From contig NZ_JABSSX010000001.1 of NCBI RefSeq assembly GCF_013280495.1, positions 434,001 to 498,000 on the forward strand: DNA of 64,000 bases. The letters are read 5' to 3'. Source of the DNA: Brevibacterium permense (GTDB lineage Bacteria; Actinomycetota; Actinomycetes; Actinomycetales; Brevibacteriaceae). Positions 5,752-39,404 of this stretch are shown here, one piece after another; position 1 is the first letter of the stretch; each line of letters starts with the position of its first letter. Under the pieces are notes generated by a model, which worked only from the letters and a program-made list of their open reading frames with translations, was not told the origin of the DNA and made no database searches. A program made the position numbers and the translations under genes.

Positions 5752-5763
5752 CGGAGCCAATGA

Positions 5764-5872
5764 CATGGGGTGCCTCATGAGGATCCGTTCGCACCAAGAC
5801 GCTGCGCACGGAGGACACCGAGGCTGAGAGAACACCCATCGAACCTGATCTGGGCCATACTAGCGAAGGGAT
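5764..5872 (+). promoter_or_regulatory. TPP riboswitch (THI element)
   Basis: Conserved blocks of the thiamine pyrophosphate aptamer are present in order: GGGGTGCC (5767-5774), GGCTGAGA (5822-5829), ACACCC, then GAACCTGATCTGGGCCATAC and TAGCGAAGGGA at the 3' end. The final GAAGGG of the aptamer is also the ribosome-binding site for thiM (ATG at 5877). Ligand binding should therefore hide it directly, giving translational control of thiM and the coupled thiE and thiD. The P3 arm is long, as is common in Actinobacteria. Confidence 0.93.
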
Positions 5873-5876
5873 CGTC

Positions 5877-6800
5877 ATGGTTGACTTCGACCTGCGTTCT
5901 GCGAATGCGCGTCTGCGCGCAAGCAATCCACTAATCCAGTGCATCACGAACACCGTTGTGCAGCAGTTCAGCGCCAACGTGCTCCTGGCCATCGGCGCCT
6001 CTCCGGCGATGCTCGACCATGAGGCCGATGCCGGACAGTTCGCCGGGATCGCCAGCGGAGTCCTCGTCAACTTCGGAACCGCCTCGAACCATCAGCTGCT
6101 CGCCGCCGATGCCGCCATCGACGTCGCCAACGCCGCCGGCAAGCCCTGGGTCCTCGACCCCGTGAGCGTCGGCGCCGTCGATTTCCGCACCTCCCGCATC
6201 CGCCGCGCCGCCGCCGATCACCCGACCGCTATCCGCGGCAATGCCTCCGAGATCGCCGCACTCGCCGGAGTCGGACTCGGTGGTCGTGGAGTCGAATCCA
6301 CCGACGAAGTCGACGCCGTCCTTCCCGCCGCCGCGAAACTGGCCCGAGAAACCGGCGCGATCGTCGCGGTCTCCGGACCCGCCGACGCCGTCGTCGCCCA
6401 CATCGACGGCACCGACCACGTCGCCCGCATCTCCGGCGGCCATGAGTTCATGCCGCTCGTCATCGGCACCGGGTGCTCACTCGGCGCCGTCACCGTTGCC
6501 TACCTGGCCGCCGCCCGTGCCGGACTGGCCGACCCCGACGCCTCGGCCGTCAGCGCTACCGAGCAGTCCGCGAACGGTGGGGCCGCCTCGGCGAAGTTCG
6601 AAGCCGTCGTCGCCGCCCACGCCCACTTCGCGGTCGCCGGGGAACTTGCCGCCGATGGCGCGAAGGGGCCCGGCAGCTACTCGGTGAACTTCCTCGACGC
6701 ACTCCACGCCGTCGACGGTGACCGACTCGCACAGGCGAGAATCGGCCTCGACACGCTCACTTCTGCGAATGAAACCGCCGGCGAAGGCATCCAGGCATGA
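5877..6800 (+). CDS. thiM: Hydroxyethylthiazole kinase
   Basis: 307 residues. ThiM phosphorylates 4-methyl-5-(2-hydroxyethyl)thiazole, so the cell can salvage the thiazole half of thiamine. The opening NPLIQCITNTVVQQFSANVLLA segment, the GNASEIAALAG nucleotide-site motif and the catalytic-Cys loop IGTGCSLGA (near residue 199) are all present. It is about 35 residues longer than the E. coli enzyme, mainly at the C-terminus. The gene is controlled by the TPP riboswitch just upstream and overlaps thiE by 4 bp. No thiC or thiG is in the window. Confidence 0.95.
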   Translation: MVDFDLRSANARLRASNPLIQCITNTVVQQFSANVLLAIGASPAMLDHEADAGQFAGIASGVLVNFGTASNHQLLAADAAIDVANAAGKPWVLDPVSVGAVDFRTSRIRRAAADHPTAIRGNASEIAALAGVGLGGRGVESTDEVDAVLPAAAKLARETGAIVAVSGPADAVVAHIDGTDHVARISGGHEFMPLVIGTGCSLGAVTVAYLAAARAGLADPDASAVSATEQSANGGAASAKFEAVVAAHAHFAVAGELAADGAKGPGSYSVNFLDALHAVDGDRLAQARIGLDTLTSANETAGEGIQA

Positions 6801-28812: not shown

Positions 28813-29994
28813 CTAGTGGGGCAGTGGATTCTCCAGCCCGTAATTGACCATCGAGCTGAATCCGCGGCCGAGCACCTGCGGCGCAGGATTCTCGATCGCC
28901 CGCGAATAGTGGCCGACGAGCTGTGAGCACACGCTCTTCCAGCTCCTGGCCTGCACCTGTTCACGACCGGCGACCCCGAAGGCCCGCCGTTTCGCTTCGT
29001 CGCCGAGGAGGTCCGCCGCATGCGTTCGCATGGCACGCAAGTCCTTCGGGGTGTAGAGCCACCCGGTGCGCGAGGAGTCGACGAGGTCGAGTGGGCCGCC
29101 TCGGGCGGGAGCGATGACCGGCACCTCGGAGGCCATGGCCTCCTGAATCGTCTGGCAGAAGGTCTCGAGCTCACCCGGGGCGACCATGAGGTCGAAGCTC
29201 GCCACCGCTTGGGCCAGAGCATCCCCACCGAGGAACCCGGTGAAATGAGCCTCCGGCAGCAGCCGGTGCAGACGCGTCCGCCAGGGACCGTCACCGACGA
29301 TGACGACCTTCGCCCCGGGCAGATCGGTGAGCGCGGCAAGGTCTTCGACCTGCTTCTCCGCGGCCAACCTGCCGACGAAGCCGATGATCTTCTCACCATT
29401 CGGAGCAACGCTTCGCCGCCAGGCCCCGGACCGATGACCCGGGTCGAAACGGGAGGAATCGACCCCACGGGCCCATAGTGCCACCTCGGCGACACCGAGG
29501 CTTTGCAGCTGACCGATCGTGTACGACGATGGGGCCAGCGTCAGCGAGGAATGCTGGTGGATATTGCGGACGTGGTTCCACAGCATGGCCTCGATTCCGT
29601 GCATTCCGTACCGGGCGGCATAAGCGGGAACCTCGGTCTGGTAGATCGCCACGGTCGGCAGATTCAGTGCCTGGGCGGCGAGGACGCCGCGCCAGCCGAG
29701 GACGAACGGACTGGCCAGATGGACGACGTCCGGGGCGAAACGCTGCAGCAGCCGGCGGATGCGGGTGACGCCTCCGGGAGCCACGCGGATGCGTCGGTAC
29801 TTCGGCAAGGCAATCGAGGGAACCCGGACGATGCGGGCGCCGGCGACCTCCTTCGGACCGTCCCTGCGCGTGCCCGGAGCGATGACGAGGACCTCGTCGC
29901 CGCGGTCGGCCAGATGGTCGAGGACCCGCAGGAGTGAGTGGGTGACCCCATTCATATTGGGGAGGAAGGATTCTGCAATGATCGCTACTCTCAC
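28813..29994 (-). CDS. GT4-family glycosyltransferase (mannosyltransferase-like)
   Basis: 393 residues, two Rossmann domains. N-terminal RVAIIAESFLPNMNGVTHSLLRVLDHL with the Gly loop, KYRRIRVAPGG, LASPFVLGWRG, IYQTEVPAYAARYG; C-terminal IGFVGRLAAEKQVEDLAAL, VIVGDGPWR, FTGFLGGDALAQAVASFD and a late E-rich motif (TFCQTIQEAMASEVPV). This resembles actinobacterial GDP-mannose-dependent alpha-mannosyltransferases (MgtA/PimB type) acting on cell-envelope glycolipids. Donor and acceptor are inferred from family. Convergent with the isochorismatase-like gene, 12 bp apart. Confidence 0.85.
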   Translation of the reverse strand: MRVAIIAESFLPNMNGVTHSLLRVLDHLADRGDEVLVIAPGTRRDGPKEVAGARIVRVPSIALPKYRRIRVAPGGVTRIRRLLQRFAPDVVHLASPFVLGWRGVLAAQALNLPTVAIYQTEVPAYAARYGMHGIEAMLWNHVRNIHQHSSLTLAPSSYTIGQLQSLGVAEVALWARGVDSSRFDPGHRSGAWRRSVAPNGEKIIGFVGRLAAEKQVEDLAALTDLPGAKVVIVGDGPWRTRLHRLLPEAHFTGFLGGDALAQAVASFDLMVAPGELETFCQTIQEAMASEVPVIAPARGGPLDLVDSSRTGWLYTPKDLRAMRTHAADLLGDEAKRRAFGVAGREQVQARSWKSVCSQLVGHYSRAIENPAPQVLGRGFSSMVNYGLENPLPH

Positions 29995-31949: not shown

Positions 31950-34499
31950 ATGTCGAAATTTGTGACCAAAGTGCTGGCCACGGGCGCCGCAGTGTCGATG
32001 CTGGCTCTGCCCGGCCTCGCGCCTGCCTTCGGGGCACCCTCTCTGGGCCACGGAAACTCCACCGACGACAGCGCTACGGCACCGAGTCAAGCGGCTCCCG
32101 CGGACCCCGACGAGTCGTCGAACGATTCGACCGAAGGCAAGTCCGCGGCGTCGGACAACGCCGGCGACGAGCAGGATTCCGGCAGCGATGCGCAGTCGGC
32201 GCCCGAGGGCACCAAAGTTCAGCTGCTCAATATCACCGACTTCCACGGACGCATCTCCGAGGCAGGCACTCAGGTCGCCTCGGTCGTCGAAGATGAGCGG
32301 GCGAAGTTCGGCACCGGCGGCGACAACGCAGGCACCGCTGTTCTTTCGACCGGTGACAACATCGGAGCGTCGACCTACACCTCCTCGTCGCAGAACGACA
32401 CACCCACGCTCGATGTGCTCGACGCGATCGGCGTCCAGGCCTCTGCTGTCGGCAACCACGAATTCGACAAAGGCATCGATGACCTCACAGGACGAGTGAG
32501 CGACGAAGCCGACTTCCCGTACTCGGCGGCCAATGTCTACGACAAGGGAACTCAGAACGTCGTCGACGGCCTCGACGAGTACTCCATCGTCGACGTGTCG
32601 GGAGTCAAGATCGCCGTCATCGGCGTCGTCACCAAGGACACCGCCTCACTCGTCTCACCGGACGGCATCGCCGACCTCGACTTCGGTGACCCCACGGACG
32701 CAGTCAACCGCGTCGCCGACGATCTCGAGAACCTGCCCGAGGACGAACGACCGGATATGACGGTCGTCGAGGCCCACCTCGGCGCGTCGTCGACCGAGAG
32801 CCTGGAAGACGCGAAGGCGTCGAACGCGGAGTTCAAGAAGCTCGTCACCGAGGCCGACGCCTCGGTCGACGCCCTGTTCACCGGCCACACCCATATGCCG
32901 TATGCCTTCGAAGCACCGGTGCCCGGAGAATCCGATCGCACCCGTCCCGTCATCGAGGCCGGCAGCTACGGCGAATACGTCGGGCAGGTGACCATGAGAG
33001 TCGACGGCAACAGCGACTGGCAGGCCAGCGGCATCGATCTCATCGAGACCGAGGGCAAGAGCTATGACTCCGAGGTCGTCGGCAAGGTCGCCGGCATCGT
33101 CAGCGACGCAGAGGAGAAGGCCAAGGAGCTCGGCTCCGATGTCTCGGGGACGATCAGCGAGGACATCACGCGCGCATCGAAGGACGGCAAGGAAGACCGC
33201 GGTGCCGAGTCCACGTTGGGCAACCTCGTCGCGGATGCGCTCAAGGAAGGCGTCGAAGAGACCCAGCTGGAAGAGGCCGACTTCGGCATTACGAACCCCG
33301 GCGGTCTGCGCGCGGACCTCCTCTGCGACGACATCTACAACAACGAGGACGAGTGCGAAGTCACCGTTGCCGAACTCAACAGCGTGCTTCCCTTCGCGAA
33401 CGACCACGGTGTCGTGACGATGAAGGGCGAGGACGTCATCGGCCTCTTCGAAGAGCAGTGGCAGCCCGACGGTGCGTCCCGACCGTTCCTCCACCTGGGG
33501 ATCTCCGATGACCTCGACGTCGTCTACGACACCGAAGCCGACAAGGGCGAGCACGTGAAGTCCGTCAAGGTCGATGGCAAGGACATCGACCCGAAGAAGG
33601 ACTACCGGGTCGCGACGCTCAGCTTCCTCGCCGCCGGTGGTGACAACTTCACCTCCTTCGCCAAGGGCGATTTCGAACAGTCGGGGCTCACCGACTTCGA
33701 GACCTGGGAGAACTACTTCAACAAGCACCAGGCCGAAGACAAGGATGTCACTCCCGACAAGAACGAACGCCAGGCCGATGCGGCCAAGGACGTCATCGAC
33801 AGCGGCGACCTGAGCGCGGAGCTGACCGGTCCGAAGGCCATCAAGCCCGGTGAGAGCGCAGATTTCGCGCTCAGGACGAATGCGAAGTCCGAGGTCGCAG
33901 GCCCCATCGACGTCACCGTCGACCTGCCGGCAGGCTATACCGCCGAGGTGGCCGCGCAGTCCGAGTCCCGGTCTGCTTCCAGCAGCGCCACCAAGGGCAG
34001 GGCCCCTGAGGTCAGCGCCGAGGCGGCCAAGACCATCACCCTCGATTCGATCCCGGCGGGGGAGTCCGAGACTGCTGTGACGGTGACCGCGCCGAAGGAC
34101 GCTTCCGGTGAGGTGACCGTCAAGGCCAGCGTCCAGGCAAATGTCGACGGTCCGTGGTGGGACGACAACCCGCTGCCTCTGGCGCATGAGTTCGAAGCCA
34201 CAGCGGCAGTCGGTGACGATGCGAACGCCTCGGCCGGCGATGACGGTTCCGCCGACGGCGGGGACGACGCTGCCGGTGGCTCGGACGGTTCGTCGAACGC
34301 CGGCGGTGCTGATGCGTCGGCCGACGGCGGTTCGGCCGATGGCTCCGGGGCTGATGCGAACGGTTCGAAGGACGGCGGCGACCTGCCGCGTACCGGCTTC
34401 GAGACCTTCAACATCGTCGCCGCCGCCCTCGCACTCATCGTCGCCGGTACCACCACGGTCACGATCGTCCGCCGCCGCAAGCTCAGTCTCCAGAACTGA
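31950..34499 (+). CDS. Wall-anchored 5'-nucleotidase/UDP-sugar hydrolase (LPxTG)
   Basis: 849 residues. Sec signal peptide (hydrophobic core near 8-25, AxA-like GAP), acidic linker, metallophosphatase domain with ITDFHGR (near 93), STGDN, AVGNHEFDKG and the GHTHMPY metal ligands (near 310), then a 5'-nucleotidase C-terminal domain with ITNPGGLRADLL (near 448). A Gly/Asp/Ser-rich stalk leads to a sortase signal LPRTG (near residue 811), a hydrophobic span and an RRRK tail. It should hydrolyse nucleotides outside the cell to free phosphate. No sortase gene is in the window. Confidence 0.93.
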   Translation: MSKFVTKVLATGAAVSMLALPGLAPAFGAPSLGHGNSTDDSATAPSQAAPADPDESSNDSTEGKSAASDNAGDEQDSGSDAQSAPEGTKVQLLNITDFHGRISEAGTQVASVVEDERAKFGTGGDNAGTAVLSTGDNIGASTYTSSSQNDTPTLDVLDAIGVQASAVGNHEFDKGIDDLTGRVSDEADFPYSAANVYDKGTQNVVDGLDEYSIVDVSGVKIAVIGVVTKDTASLVSPDGIADLDFGDPTDAVNRVADDLENLPEDERPDMTVVEAHLGASSTESLEDAKASNAEFKKLVTEADASVDALFTGHTHMPYAFEAPVPGESDRTRPVIEAGSYGEYVGQVTMRVDGNSDWQASGIDLIETEGKSYDSEVVGKVAGIVSDAEEKAKELGSDVSGTISEDITRASKDGKEDRGAESTLGNLVADALKEGVEETQLEEADFGITNPGGLRADLLCDDIYNNEDECEVTVAELNSVLPFANDHGVVTMKGEDVIGLFEEQWQPDGASRPFLHLGISDDLDVVYDTEADKGEHVKSVKVDGKDIDPKKDYRVATLSFLAAGGDNFTSFAKGDFEQSGLTDFETWENYFNKHQAEDKDVTPDKNERQADAAKDVIDSGDLSAELTGPKAIKPGESADFALRTNAKSEVAGPIDVTVDLPAGYTAEVAAQSESRSASSSATKGRAPEVSAEAAKTITLDSIPAGESETAVTVTAPKDASGEVTVKASVQANVDGPWWDDNPLPLAHEFEATAAVGDDANASAGDDGSADGGDDAAGGSDGSSNAGGADASADGGSADGSGADANGSKDGGDLPRTGFETFNIVAAALALIVAGTTTVTIVRRRKLSLQN

Positions 34500-34689: not shown

Positions 34690-36942
34690 CTACCGGTGCG
34701 TGATGCCCGCAGTATCGGGAGTGCTGCGTTGCGTCGGCGAGACCGGCGGGCGACCGGCGCGGAAAGTCTCGAGGTGTGTGAGCACCGGGACGAGGAAGAG
34801 GATGCCGACGGCCGGCACGACGATTCCCGAGTCGTTGATGAGAGTGCCGACTCCCAGCAGAATCGCGAGGCTGATCATCGCCGCCCTCAGCAGTGGGATC
34901 CGCAGGTAGGCGTCCTGAAGCCCGTGCAGTCGGAAGCGCGCTGGATCGAGGGCCATCCAGAACACGCCGATGATGACCAGCGGCAGCACCAGAGTCATCC
35001 ACGACTGGGTGAGGATGTCGATGTTCATCCCGATCTTTCGAGCCAGAACGCTGAGCGCCTGACCGCTGATGATCGAGTCGAAGAACCGTCCGAAGTGCGT
35101 GCGCTGATCAGCCGGGCGCAGCCAGTCGAGGAACAGCACGGTGAGCATGACGAACCCGGCGATGCCCACCGTCAGCCCCAGCCGTTTGAGCGAGAACCGG
35201 ATGCTCGCAGCGGACAGCACGAGGTAGGCGACTCCGATGATGAGGGTCGGCACGGATCCGAATTTCGTGCCCAGACCGGGTGCGGCGAGGATGACGCAGG
35301 AGACGAGCACGGGAAGGGTGACGATGAGGACCCGATGCAGCGGCTTGGCCACCAGAGACGCGAACCCGGCGACCGCCAACAGCAGCGCACAGCAGTACAG
35401 CGCCAGCGCCGAGTTCCCGATCCCGTAGAACCGGGAGGCGATGAGCAGGGGCTCACCCAACAGCGTCGACATCTGCAGCTGGGATCCGGTGACGACGTCG
35501 TAGGCGAGGACGGCCACGGTCACGGTGGACACGAAGAGCACCGGCCCGAACTTATGCCGCCGCCAGGGGCCGAGCAGCGCCAGCACCCCGAGCAGCAGCG
35601 CCCACCCGGCCAAGGCTCCGAGCATCGCGATGTCCGGATTCGTCGCCCGCTCCCACGGCACGGTATTGACCAGATACGTCGAGATCGGCATCGCCGCGAA
35701 TACGACACCGAGGCGGTACGACCCGGAATGGACGAGCTCCCGGTGGTTCTTCCGCATGAACCACGCCAAGGCCAACAGTCCGATCATGAGCACGGCGACC
35801 ACGGGGAAGAACCACGTCGACAGATCGTTCTGCGTCTTCACCGCAACCTGCCGGTCGAGCACCGCCTGATAGCGCGAATGCCAATCGGACCCGTGCGCCC
35901 CCGAGGTCATCGGCGCCCCGGCCGCATTGTCCATCTCCTCGGCACCGGACAGTGCCACGAGCGTCGGTGCCAGGTCGGGCACCTGCACCAGTCCCGGCTG
36001 CCGCGTCGACGAGGAGGTGAGCAGTCCCGCCTGCTCGCCCGGGGCGACCATCATCGTCGCCTGCATCGACGACCCTTCATGCGTGCCGTCGGCGATCGAT
36101 GAGAATACCACGGGAACCCGCCCCTCGCCGAGGCGGTTCGGCCGATTTGCGCTCATCCATCCCGTCGATTCGAGGATGTCCCCGACCTGAGCGTCGAGAT
36201 TCTTCAGCGAGTAGCCGTCGGCGGCGGTATTGCCGAGATCGACGAGGGTGAGCTCGCCGTCCGCGGCCGATTTCGCGACGTCCGTGCCCAGGTCGGACCC
36301 GACGGGCGACCAGTTCTCGACGCGGCCGGTTGGGGTGGCCGCGGCGATGGCGGCACCGCTGCCGAATGCGCGGATATCGGGCACTGCCTCGGCCAGCGCC
36401 CCGAGGGAGGCATCGTAGTTGTCGCCGCGTGCCACCTGCGCGTACACGTCCCAATCGGCGACCCAGCCGTCGAGCGGAGAGGCCGGTTCGCGGCACTGGT
36501 CACGGGGTTCGTCGGCGGCTCGCCGCCCTGATCCGAGCCCCAGCCAGCCGTCGACCGGGCAGCTCGTCGAGCGCACGCTGCGCGGAGTGATCGTCCCGAT
36601 CTGCCCGCTCTTCATCATCACCCACAGGTGCGGTGTGGTGCGCGGATCGAGATCCTCGAAGCTGAATCCGGAGACGTTGATCGACACGACCCCGGGATTC
36701 TCCGAGGCGGCCCCACCGCCGTCGTCGTCCGTGGCCGGAGCCGTGCCACCGTTCCCGCCTGCCGCCTGAGCGTCGGCCCGAGCCGACGCGCCCACGGCCG
36801 CATTCGCGCCCGCAGCAGCATCCGCGTTCGAGCCCGCGCCCGGGACCGCCTGCCCGGCTTGGGGCAGGCCGAGGACGAACAGGGCAATGGCCAGGATCCC
36901 GAGCAGAACCCGGGCGGCGGGGGAGGTCACGGGGGCTCTCAT
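34690..36942 (-). CDS. Polytopic membrane protein with extracytoplasmic phosphatase-superfamily-like domain (paralogue A)
   Basis: 750 residues. Signal peptide or first helix (near residues 12-30), Ala-rich linker, then an extracytoplasmic domain to about residue 355 with INVSGFSFEDLDPRTTPHLW and STSCPVDGWLGLGSG. The D...TP start and the T/S-CP..GWL..G.G motif recall the alkaline phosphatase superfamily, but the full metal-ligand set is not evident. The rest has about ten helices with SRFYGIGN, FLDWLRPADQRTHFGRFFD and NDSGIVVP. Homologous throughout to the next gene upstream (36939-39404). Function unknown; likely cell-envelope related. Its start overlaps the upstream paralogue's stop (ATGA). 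Confidence 0.75.
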   Translation of the reverse strand: MRAPVTSPAARVLLGILAIALFVLGLPQAGQAVPGAGSNADAAAGANAAVGASARADAQAAGGNGGTAPATDDDGGGAASENPGVVSINVSGFSFEDLDPRTTPHLWVMMKSGQIGTITPRSVRSTSCPVDGWLGLGSGRRAADEPRDQCREPASPLDGWVADWDVYAQVARGDNYDASLGALAEAVPDIRAFGSGAAIAAATPTGRVENWSPVGSDLGTDVAKSAADGELTLVDLGNTAADGYSLKNLDAQVGDILESTGWMSANRPNRLGEGRVPVVFSSIADGTHEGSSMQATMMVAPGEQAGLLTSSSTRQPGLVQVPDLAPTLVALSGAEEMDNAAGAPMTSGAHGSDWHSRYQAVLDRQVAVKTQNDLSTWFFPVVAVLMIGLLALAWFMRKNHRELVHSGSYRLGVVFAAMPISTYLVNTVPWERATNPDIAMLGALAGWALLLGVLALLGPWRRHKFGPVLFVSTVTVAVLAYDVVTGSQLQMSTLLGEPLLIASRFYGIGNSALALYCCALLLAVAGFASLVAKPLHRVLIVTLPVLVSCVILAAPGLGTKFGSVPTLIIGVAYLVLSAASIRFSLKRLGLTVGIAGFVMLTVLFLDWLRPADQRTHFGRFFDSIISGQALSVLARKIGMNIDILTQSWMTLVLPLVIIGVFWMALDPARFRLHGLQDAYLRIPLLRAAMISLAILLGVGTLINDSGIVVPAVGILFLVPVLTHLETFRAGRPPVSPTQRSTPDTAGITHR

Positions 36943-39404
36943 CGGTGAGCCTCCTCGGCGTGTTCAGCACTGAGCGCCAGCAGGAAGGGCAGCAGAACCA
37001 TGGCTCCGGTCGAGGGCACGGCGATCCCGGAATCGGTGAGCACGAGCCCGACGCCCAGTCCGGTGACGGCGGCGAGGAATCCATAGTGCAGGTCGGAGTC
37101 GGTGAAGAGCTGGGGGAGGCGTCCTCGCCACTTGTTGACCAGGCGCCCGGTCCGGCTGCCGGCGTGGACGTGGGGGAAGTGGAGGAGGTAGCGGAGGAAG
37201 ATGAGGATCGCGATGGCCGCAAGCGGGGTGACGATGGCCAGGGCCGGGTTGACCTGGATGATGTGGAGGTTCGCGCCGAGCTTGCGGCCGACGACCTGCA
37301 GGGCCTCACCGGTGACGATCTGGTCGAAGAACGTGCCGAAATGTGAGCGTGCCCCGGCCGGGCGCAGCCAGTCGAGGAAGGCGATGCCGATGAGCACGGC
37401 CAGCGAAGACAGACCGATGAGGGCGAGGCGCAGCAGAGTCAGTCGGATCTTCGACAGCAGCGCCAGCAGGACCATGAGACCGGCGAGGATGGCGATCGTG
37501 CCGCCGAACTTCGCACCCCAGGAGGGGTTGCCGGAGACGAACACGGCGGCCAGCCCGACGACGACCGGCACGATGATCACTGCTCGTCGGTGCCCGCGTG
37601 CCCGCAGCCACGAGACCATCAGCCCAAGGAAGATGAAGAGGCTGACGATGAAGATCGCCGCACCCTGATTGCCGAGTCCGTAGTAACGGCCGCCGACGAT
37701 CGGGTTGTAGCCGAGCAGCGAGTTCGCCTGCAGATGGGACCCGGTGGCCAGGTCGGCGGCGAGGATGAGCAGGTTCGGCCCGGCCAGGGCGCCGACCCGT
37801 CCTCGCCAGGTCCGACCCCATGGCGGGATGAGGGCGAGAACGAACAGAACGGCGGCCGTGCCGATGACCGAGAGGAACAGACCGAGCCCGGGATCGGCCA
37901 TCCTCGACCAGGGGAGGAGCCCGGCGAGGAACGCTCCCATCGGCAGGGAGGCAACGCCCAGGGACACCCAGCCGAGGAAGCGGTGGACGTGGGACGCTCG
38001 GGTGGCACCGCCTCGGCGGCCGAGGATGGAGGGGTTGAGCAGGACCGCGCACGCGATGAAGAGGATGTAGAAGATGACGTCGAGGGTGATGGAGAACGTC
38101 GAGAGATTCTGACGGATCGTCGTCGACTTCTGCGCCTCGGCGACGAGATCGTCGATGCGCTGCTGCGGATCATCATCGGTCGGGGTGGAGTCGAAGCCGA
38201 CGGCGCGCGGGGAATCGACACCGAGGACATCGAGGATGCCCGGCGCCAGATCGGTGATCTGCAGCAGCCCCGGGGTACGGGTCGTCGCCGACGACAGGGA
38301 CCCGGGTTCGAAGCCGGGTCCGGACGCGATGAACGCGCGCAGCTGCGGCAGACCGGAACTGTCACCGAGGCCGGCGACGATGATCGTCGGATCTGCGGCC
38401 CCGTCCTTCGCGTTCTCCCGCACTTCCTGCAGCCGCACGCCGAGGCGGCGGTCGGCTTCAGCGACGCGGGTCTCCCGGTCGTAGTTCGGCGGAACGGTAT
38501 AGGAGTAGTTCGGGATCGGGTCGAACAGCCAGGAGCGGAGGCCGATCGCGCCGAGGTCGACGACGCCGAGGCGGCAATCCGTGGCCAACGCATCCTCCGT
38601 GAAGTTCGTCACCACACCGTCTTCGTCCGCGGCGGCATAAGCTGCGCCGGGACCTTCGGCTGCGACGCAGGGTTCGAGCAGAGAGTCCGCATCGGCCGCG
38701 TCGGTGCCGGCGGGCACGGTGCTGCCGGCTTCTGTGACGGCGCGCGCCAGCATGCCATAGTCGACGGAGTAGCCGGAGCCGATATTGGGCTCCTTGACCG
38801 CATCGAAACCCTCGATCCGAGCCGCCGTCGTTCCGGCCGCGGATTCGGCGTCATGAGCTTCATCACTGTTCGCCGTCTCCTTCGCCGAGGCGGCCCCGTC
38901 CTCGGCGTCCACGGAACCGTCCGTGGTGGGGGCGATCATCGTCGGGCAGCGGGCCGAGTCATCGGGGTCGGCATCCTCGGCGATGGGGGAGGGGCCGGCC
39001 TGCGCACGGGCACCCGCGCCGAAGGACAGCCAACCGGAGGCGGGACAGGTGGCCGAGCCGATCGTGCGTACGTTGAGGTTCGCTGCCGCGCCCTCGGAGA
39101 GCAGATGAAAGAGGTTCGGAGTGCGCTCGGGGTCGATATCATCGATGGTCAGACCCGGAATGCCGAAGACGACCGTCTGCCCGGCCGGGGGCCTGCTGGT
39201 GTCAGTGGACTGCGCGGAGGACGCATTCGCGTCGGCCGAACCGTCGGTCGGTGCCATGCTGTCCGTTGATGCCGAGCCGTCGGTTGATGCCGGCGCGGAG
39301 GAGGCGCCGAGTCCGAGGCCCGCCGTCAGGAGCCCGACCAGGAGACCCAGCATCAGGATTCTCAATGCGGGAAGTCGGAAGGGCAGGCTGGAGTGAGTCG
39401 GCAC
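36939..39404 (-). CDS. Polytopic membrane protein with extracytoplasmic phosphatase-superfamily-like domain (paralogue B)
   Basis: 821 residues, same architecture as paralogue A. N-terminal helix (near 10-35), then FGIPGLTIDDIDPERTPNLFHLL and IGSATCPASGWLSFGAG, a longer extracytoplasmic domain with an Asp/Glu/Ala-rich insert, the ITDLAPGILDVLGV segment, and about ten helices carrying GRYYGLGN, FLDWLRPAGARSHFGTFFD and LTDSGIAVP. These shared motifs show a tandem duplication. The pair lies immediately upstream of, and divergent from, rplM. I do not recognise a named function. Confidence 0.75.
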   Translation of the reverse strand: MPTHSSLPFRLPALRILMLGLLVGLLTAGLGLGASSAPASTDGSASTDSMAPTDGSADANASSAQSTDTSRPPAGQTVVFGIPGLTIDDIDPERTPNLFHLLSEGAAANLNVRTIGSATCPASGWLSFGAGARAQAGPSPIAEDADPDDSARCPTMIAPTTDGSVDAEDGAASAKETANSDEAHDAESAAGTTAARIEGFDAVKEPNIGSGYSVDYGMLARAVTEAGSTVPAGTDAADADSLLEPCVAAEGPGAAYAAADEDGVVTNFTEDALATDCRLGVVDLGAIGLRSWLFDPIPNYSYTVPPNYDRETRVAEADRRLGVRLQEVRENAKDGAADPTIIVAGLGDSSGLPQLRAFIASGPGFEPGSLSSATTRTPGLLQITDLAPGILDVLGVDSPRAVGFDSTPTDDDPQQRIDDLVAEAQKSTTIRQNLSTFSITLDVIFYILFIACAVLLNPSILGRRGGATRASHVHRFLGWVSLGVASLPMGAFLAGLLPWSRMADPGLGLFLSVIGTAAVLFVLALIPPWGRTWRGRVGALAGPNLLILAADLATGSHLQANSLLGYNPIVGGRYYGLGNQGAAIFIVSLFIFLGLMVSWLRARGHRRAVIIVPVVVGLAAVFVSGNPSWGAKFGGTIAILAGLMVLLALLSKIRLTLLRLALIGLSSLAVLIGIAFLDWLRPAGARSHFGTFFDQIVTGEALQVVGRKLGANLHIIQVNPALAIVTPLAAIAILIFLRYLLHFPHVHAGSRTGRLVNKWRGRLPQLFTDSDLHYGFLAAVTGLGVGLVLTDSGIAVPSTGAMVLLPFLLALSAEHAEEAHR

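Follow-up and report, generated by a model that had tools for sequence, protein, structure and literature searches.

Two adjacent genes in the genome of Brevibacterium permense, located within the 64,000-nucleotide stretch of DNA analysed here (the window), are proposed, with a probability of roughly 0.6, to encode GT-C_B-type transferases, each of which would polymerise or attach a lipid-linked glycan outside the membrane. In the list of open reading frames, the 5' gene of the pair, Q2 (positions 36939-39404, minus strand), has a GTG start and a length of 821 aa; its 3' paralog, Q1 (34690-36942, minus strand), starts with ATG and comprises 750 aa. Over its full length (36939..39404), Q2 is composed of a signal anchor, a degenerate outer domain featuring the fold of the alkaline phosphatase (ALP) superfamily, and a SEDS/WaaL-like membrane domain. 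The architecture and the conserved membrane-domain residues of Q1 are identical in kind. Neither protein matched a Pfam or NCBIfam family above cut-off, in agreement with a previous sequence-only reading of the region, which had recognised no name for them. A literature search among open papers likewise returned no description of this family, referred to as ALP/TM in the following, or of the steA-linked glycan genes described below.

Both open reading frames (750 and 821 residues) were found as the sequence-only reading had given them, including the 4-bp overlap. This overlap is formed by the letters ATGA (36939..36942, minus strand), in which the TGA stop codon of Q2 lies over the ATG start codon of Q1, suggesting translational coupling of the two genes. 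In a two-sequence comparison, Q1 and Q2 share 27% identity over almost their whole length (E-value 2e-68). Both genes are present in 38 of the 38 Brevibacterium loci examined, and, in a simple start-codon scan, at least 34 of these showed the overlap of exactly 4 bp, the remaining four being ambiguous. Among the matches listed for Q2, the closest named one originates from B. iodinum (97%). In two trees, the Q1 rows and the Q2 rows of Brevibacterium represented sister clades (support values of 88 and 0.97), and the pair therefore most likely arose by duplication inside this lineage. Outside Brevibacterium, the ALP/TM gene is mostly present in a single copy. Two genomes of another family feature the order ALP/TM, MraY/WecA-like gene, ALP/TM (L222, 5801-11909; L223, 4466-11387), the two copies being non-sister in the tree, and a second copy in family f21 (loci L135, L137, and L138) is located beside GHL10 glycosyl-hydrolase-like and EF-G2 genes.

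The pair is flanked by the divergent rplM-rpsI genes and by a convergent gene (31950-34499, plus strand) for a 5'-nucleotidase that resembles UshA and carries an LPXTG-type cell-wall anchor of Gram-positive bacteria; this neighbour was clustered as the same one in 31 of the 38 Brevibacterium loci. Furthermore, a GT4 glycosyltransferase gene is located close to the pair (28813-29994, minus strand). The sole Rfam match within the window was a TPP riboswitch (5756-5889, plus strand), and a scan for promoters and terminators yielded nothing informative.

Since a full-length Foldseek search returned no match below an E-value of 0.001, the two domains were searched separately. The outer domain of Q2 (residues 70-410; 38175..39197, minus strand) was taken from an AlphaFold2 model based on an 82-row alignment (pLDDT 84.9, pTM 0.86). 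In the VIA comparison, it matched nucleotide pyrophosphatases (NPP), phosphoglycerate mutases (iPGM), and sulfatases with Z values of 17-18 over 210-244 residues, and a profile match to the pyrophosphatase 7mw8 (E-value 1.5e-4) was also obtained, indicating the common alpha/beta fold of the ALP superfamily. The Asp/His metal site of the superfamily is missing throughout the 82 rows. At position 83, aligned with the first metal Asp of NPP, 81 of the 82 rows show P, S, G, or A, and none shows Asp; no column contains His in more than 32 rows; and a DHG-type motif is absent from the domain, as it is from those relatives in other families that retain the first Asp. Due to the loss of the metal-site His and the first metal Asp, the outer domain is probably not a phosphatase, and the degenerate alkaline-phosphatase-type module postulated from the letters alone was thus borne out by model, fold comparison, and ligand loss. 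Position 119, which by sequence would be equivalent to the likely nucleophile, is Thr or Ser in 73 of 82 rows; judging from the aligned rows, this residue would be what is left of an ALP catalytic apparatus that is otherwise gone. C120 and C153 are near-invariant, which suggests a disulphide bond between them.

These observations bear on a different explanation, namely that catalysis resides in the ALP domain, which would modify an envelope glycan or lipid as a phosphotransferase or phosphodiesterase, comparable to LtaS, EptA, or the GPI ethanolamine-phosphate transferases, with the membrane domain serving as its anchor. The combination of an ALP domain and a membrane part is indeed known from phosphotransferases, and besides the fold and the Thr/Ser at position 119, an IDG-like first Asp persists in certain relatives that belong to other families of the phylum. 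However, this Asp is missing in the Actinomycetia rows, neither a conserved His nor a DHG-type motif is available to such an enzyme, and conservation is strongest in the membrane domain, so that catalysis by the ALP domain is considered unlikely. An identity as GPI ethanolamine-phosphate transferase was dropped because the metal ligands are lacking; that the fold lists gave no prominent chain of this type excludes nothing by itself.

Structures of YejM/PbgA were also among the chains that Foldseek matched to the outer domain, as was 6v8q. YejM/PbgA carries an ALP-type domain on a membrane domain and regulates LPS synthesis, and the ALP/TM proteins could correspondingly be non-catalytic sensors or regulators of envelope synthesis, all the more as the regulators SteA and SteB adjoin the putative ancestral locus of the family (see below). 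Against this stand the membrane part of YejM, which is much smaller than that of Q1 and Q2 and unlike the SEDS/WaaL match, and the almost complete conservation of D, R, and H on the predicted outer face across the phylum, which is more typical of an enzyme; a purely regulatory role accordingly appears improbable. In general, an ALP fold placed outside on a membrane domain is shared with LtaS, EptA, the GPI ethanolamine-phosphate transferases, and YejM/PbgA, whereas the ALP/TM proteins differ from all of these in having lost the metal ligands and in possessing a larger, SEDS/WaaL-like membrane domain.

The membrane domain of Q2 (residues 431-821; 36942..38114, minus strand), whose counterpart in Q1 is encoded at 34693..35829 (minus strand), was modelled alone with a pLDDT of 89.4 and a pTM of 0.90. 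Foldseek placed RodA (6pl6) first with a probability of 0.91, all others listed reaching at most 0.12. In the VIA comparison, the top eight chains were all RodA, FtsW, or WaaL, with Z values between 8.5 and 11.2 over 222-258 residues (4.5-5.9 Å), followed by the next unrelated chain at 6.5. The best of these was the SEDS structure 6bar (RodA/FtsW; GT119, PF01098; Z 11.2, 222 residues, 4.5 Å), and WaaL (7tpg; GT121 and others, PF04932) was matched with a Z of 9.2 over 258 residues. Helical models may reach Z values of 9-11 by common arrangement, and because the values obtained lie below the caution level of about 13 for helical bundles, the match to the SEDS/WaaL-like GT-C_B fold is regarded as strong, not final, and is held with moderate certainty; the argument for a transferase combines this fold with the gene context. 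The sequence-only reading had counted ten helices; a multi-helix membrane part was indeed found, but 11-12 helices fit better, the predicted topology comprising one extra helix followed by ten membrane helices. A ten-helix core with five outer loops would, by this prediction, correspond to the SEDS count.

Comparison of profiles pointed in the same direction only weakly. In hmmscan, Q1 and Q2 matched neither the SEDS (PF01098) nor the Wzy_C (PF04932) model of Pfam. With hhalign, the ALP/TM profile scored 83% against Wzy_C and 75% when 104 sequences were used; the aligned part spans just about 45 columns, limited to the last two helices, and column-shuffled controls reached 71% (30% with 104 sequences). 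The value for SEDS was 2.5%, and those for the GT87, MptB-like, and MurJ-like profiles were at most 0.5%. Further differences from SEDS proteins are the signal anchor and the extra helix before the core, and the fusion to an ALP-fold outer domain, which also sets the family apart from WaaL/Wzy_C, whereas SEDS proteins pair with a penicillin-binding protein. The family was therefore assigned to neither the SEDS proteins, the O-antigen ligases, nor the ALP enzymes, each of these assignments lacking a defining feature. The fold search that the sequence-only reading had called for thus confirmed an ALP fold outside, but the working part is likely the SEDS/WaaL-like membrane domain and not the ALP domain.

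The conservation pattern of the membrane domain is in line with a catalytic function on the outer face. D551, R573, G576, and G630 are invariant in all 104 sequences from the phylum, followed by D678 and D791 (102/104 each), H688 (101/104), and R707 (100/104). Conserved residues are located chiefly in a 25-residue loop (554-578) and in a long loop (680-719), and the positive-inside rule predicts the loops with near-invariant residues to lie outside. The first conserved segment (residues 551-579; 37668..37754, minus strand) represents a predicted outer loop with the pattern D-x3-G-S-x-L-Q...G-R573-(F/Y)-Y-G576-x-G-N579, and the second (residues 678-708; 37281..37373, minus strand) a long predicted outer loop with D678-W-x-R681-P...R686-x-H688-x-G...R707-K708. 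The motifs quoted in the sequence-only reading were confirmed, and relatives strongly conserve them, with C120, W125, G131, R133, R573-x-x-G576-x-G-N579, D678-W-x-R-P..R-x-H688-x-G, and N-D791-S-G kept. Their appearance as an active site, also suggested there, held up; their supposed position within membrane helices did not, most of them falling into predicted outer-face loops. By topology prediction, R573, D678, R681, H688, and R707 are all placed in outer loops, the long one near the C-terminus, a predicted arrangement that would resemble that of SEDS proteins. In GT-C_B/GT-C1 enzymes, the conserved residues face outward: Arg serves the diphosphate, and Asp/His lie within an extended outer loop close to the C-terminus (PMC10920833, PMC10449877). 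The Arg and His pattern in the predicted outer loops of ALP/TM resembles that of O-Lig, a likeness to WaaL (PMC10920833). The loop 678-708 is proposed to be the equivalent of the conserved SEDS/WaaL loop.

Sampling of 198 genomes from the class and 149 from the phylum Actinomycetota detected relatives of ALP/TM in 78 and 60, respectively; the best 80 loci of a contig profile scan were all actinobacterial. Across several families of the class, six loci share the order steA, steB, PNPT (a MraY/WecA-like protein of 270-300 aa), MurJ-like, GT4, ALP/TM, pyrG, and nudix, usually followed by xerD. In other families of the phylum, the same steA-pyrG frame encloses GT2/GT4 and PNPT-like genes in varying order, and in other actinomycetes ALP/TM resides within a cluster of serS, pheA, DUF4446, and GT87 genes, ALP/TM itself, and MptB-like and GT2 genes. 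The place next to steA-steB (PF12555, PF11382) is proposed to be the ancestral one of the ALP/TM gene. The envelope role suggested by the sequence-only reading fits these neighbourhoods of steA-steB, glycosyltransferase, MurJ-like, and PNPT-like genes, the last two of which resemble the MraY and MurJ supply steps of SEDS enzymes; taken together, the neighbours have the look of a full route to a lipid-linked sugar.

Linkage to genes for lipid-linked glycans, together with the polytopic membrane domain and its conserved charged residues, would also suit a transporter, scramblase, or flippase of such a glycan, or a carrier-recycling protein. Most steA-type loci of the Actinomycetia, however, already contain a MurJ-like flippase, the membrane fold is SEDS/WaaL-like with no transporter prominent in the fold search, and the conserved residues lie on one predicted face; transport is thus given little probability compared with the proposed transferase function.

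The Brevibacterium steA locus (L147) encodes steA, steB, a PNPT-like protein, a MurJ-like protein, a GT4, and a second GT4-like protein. It contains no ALP/TM gene, the Q1/Q2 pair adjoining rplM instead, and the rest of the machine is likely encoded elsewhere in the genome, outside the window. The second, divergent GT4-like gene of this locus (C22; L147, 5308-6444, minus strand) occupies precisely the slot that ALP/TM has in other families, with the GT4 gene on one side and pyrG on the other. The PNPT-like gene (L147, 9416-10285) scored 18.5 bits for PF00953, under the cut-off of 27; its product nevertheless contains the motifs DD, N..N.LD, and GD.GAN in order, with D85, D86, N169, N172, D175, G225, D226, G228, and N230 invariant in seven members. 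Its best PDB match was MraY (8tlu, E-value 0.014), and it is accordingly regarded as a putative distant relative of MraY/WecA.

Although often far apart in the genome, ALP/TM and PNPT-like genes co-occur. Both were detected in 72 of the 198 genomes, ALP/TM only in 6, the PNPT-like gene only in 9, and neither in 111 (Fisher p 3e-36 by genome, the genomes not being independent); by family, the corresponding numbers were 21 with both, 2 and 2 with a single one, and 16 with neither (p 2e-7). The genomes with a single one of the two genes weigh against the proposed transferase pathway, as do the distant MraY/WecA assignment of the PNPT-like protein and some ALP/TM neighbourhoods (serS-pheA-GT87, EF-G2-GHL10, rplM) that have no flippase gene adjacent. 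SteA was present in 73 of the 78 ALP/TM genomes and also occurred without an ALP/TM gene in 33 of the sampled genomes. Seven large genomes of family f23 (G039, G057, G123, G133, G153, G163, and G173) have kept the MraY/WecA-like gene and show no ALP/TM match; another protein may have taken its place there. The genome from which the window originates contains two SEDS genes of its own, a further difference between ALP/TM and SEDS, and returned no match to the Wzy_C polymerase/ligase model, which leaves the outer-face step of the pathway otherwise unfilled.

Paralogy, both folds, loss of the metal ligands, residue conservation, neighbourhoods, and co-occurrence are computed results; catalysis, substrate, residue roles, and the reason for two copies are deduced from them. 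On this basis, the following sequence of steps can be proposed. The MraY/WecA-like PNPT would load a sugar phosphate onto polyprenyl phosphate, GT4 or GT2 enzymes would lengthen the lipid-linked glycan, and the MurJ-like flippase would turn it outward. The ALP/TM protein would then move the glycan from the diphospholipid to a growing chain or a wall acceptor. We infer that R573, R681, and R707 may hold the diphosphate, and that H688 or D678 may activate the acceptor in a metal-free reaction. Penicillin-binding proteins have a partner or docking role for SEDS enzymes, and the ALP domain might similarly provide a glycan- or acceptor-binding or docking platform. In Brevibacterium, the duplicated copies would perhaps divide the labour as polymerase and ligase, or form a heterodimer.

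The proposed ancestral position of ALP/TM next to steA-steB points to a product that would be a glycan of the septum or cell wall. In Corynebacterium and Mycobacterium, SteA and SteB regulate how the cell wall is hydrolysed during separation (PMC6705760, PMC12977500), which makes a septal or wall glycan a natural guess; the passages found in the SteAB papers make no mention of the glycan genes. Much of the Actinomycetota may possess an undescribed second lipid-II-like pathway, to which we assign even odds, consisting of MraY-like initiation, GT4/GT2 enzymes, a MurJ-like flippase, and a SEDS/WaaL-like transferase whose phosphatase domain is dead. Its product would be a septal or wall glycan linked to the cell separation that SteAB controls.

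The analysis turns nameless proteins of many genomes into parts of a testable pathway with named residues. If the proposal is true, ALP/TM would establish a new family of GT-C_B glycosyltransferases in which the domains are paired in an unusual way. In that case, the step that an envelope glycan pathway takes on the outer face would also become known across the Actinomycetota, and SteA-SteB would gain a concrete biochemical partner.
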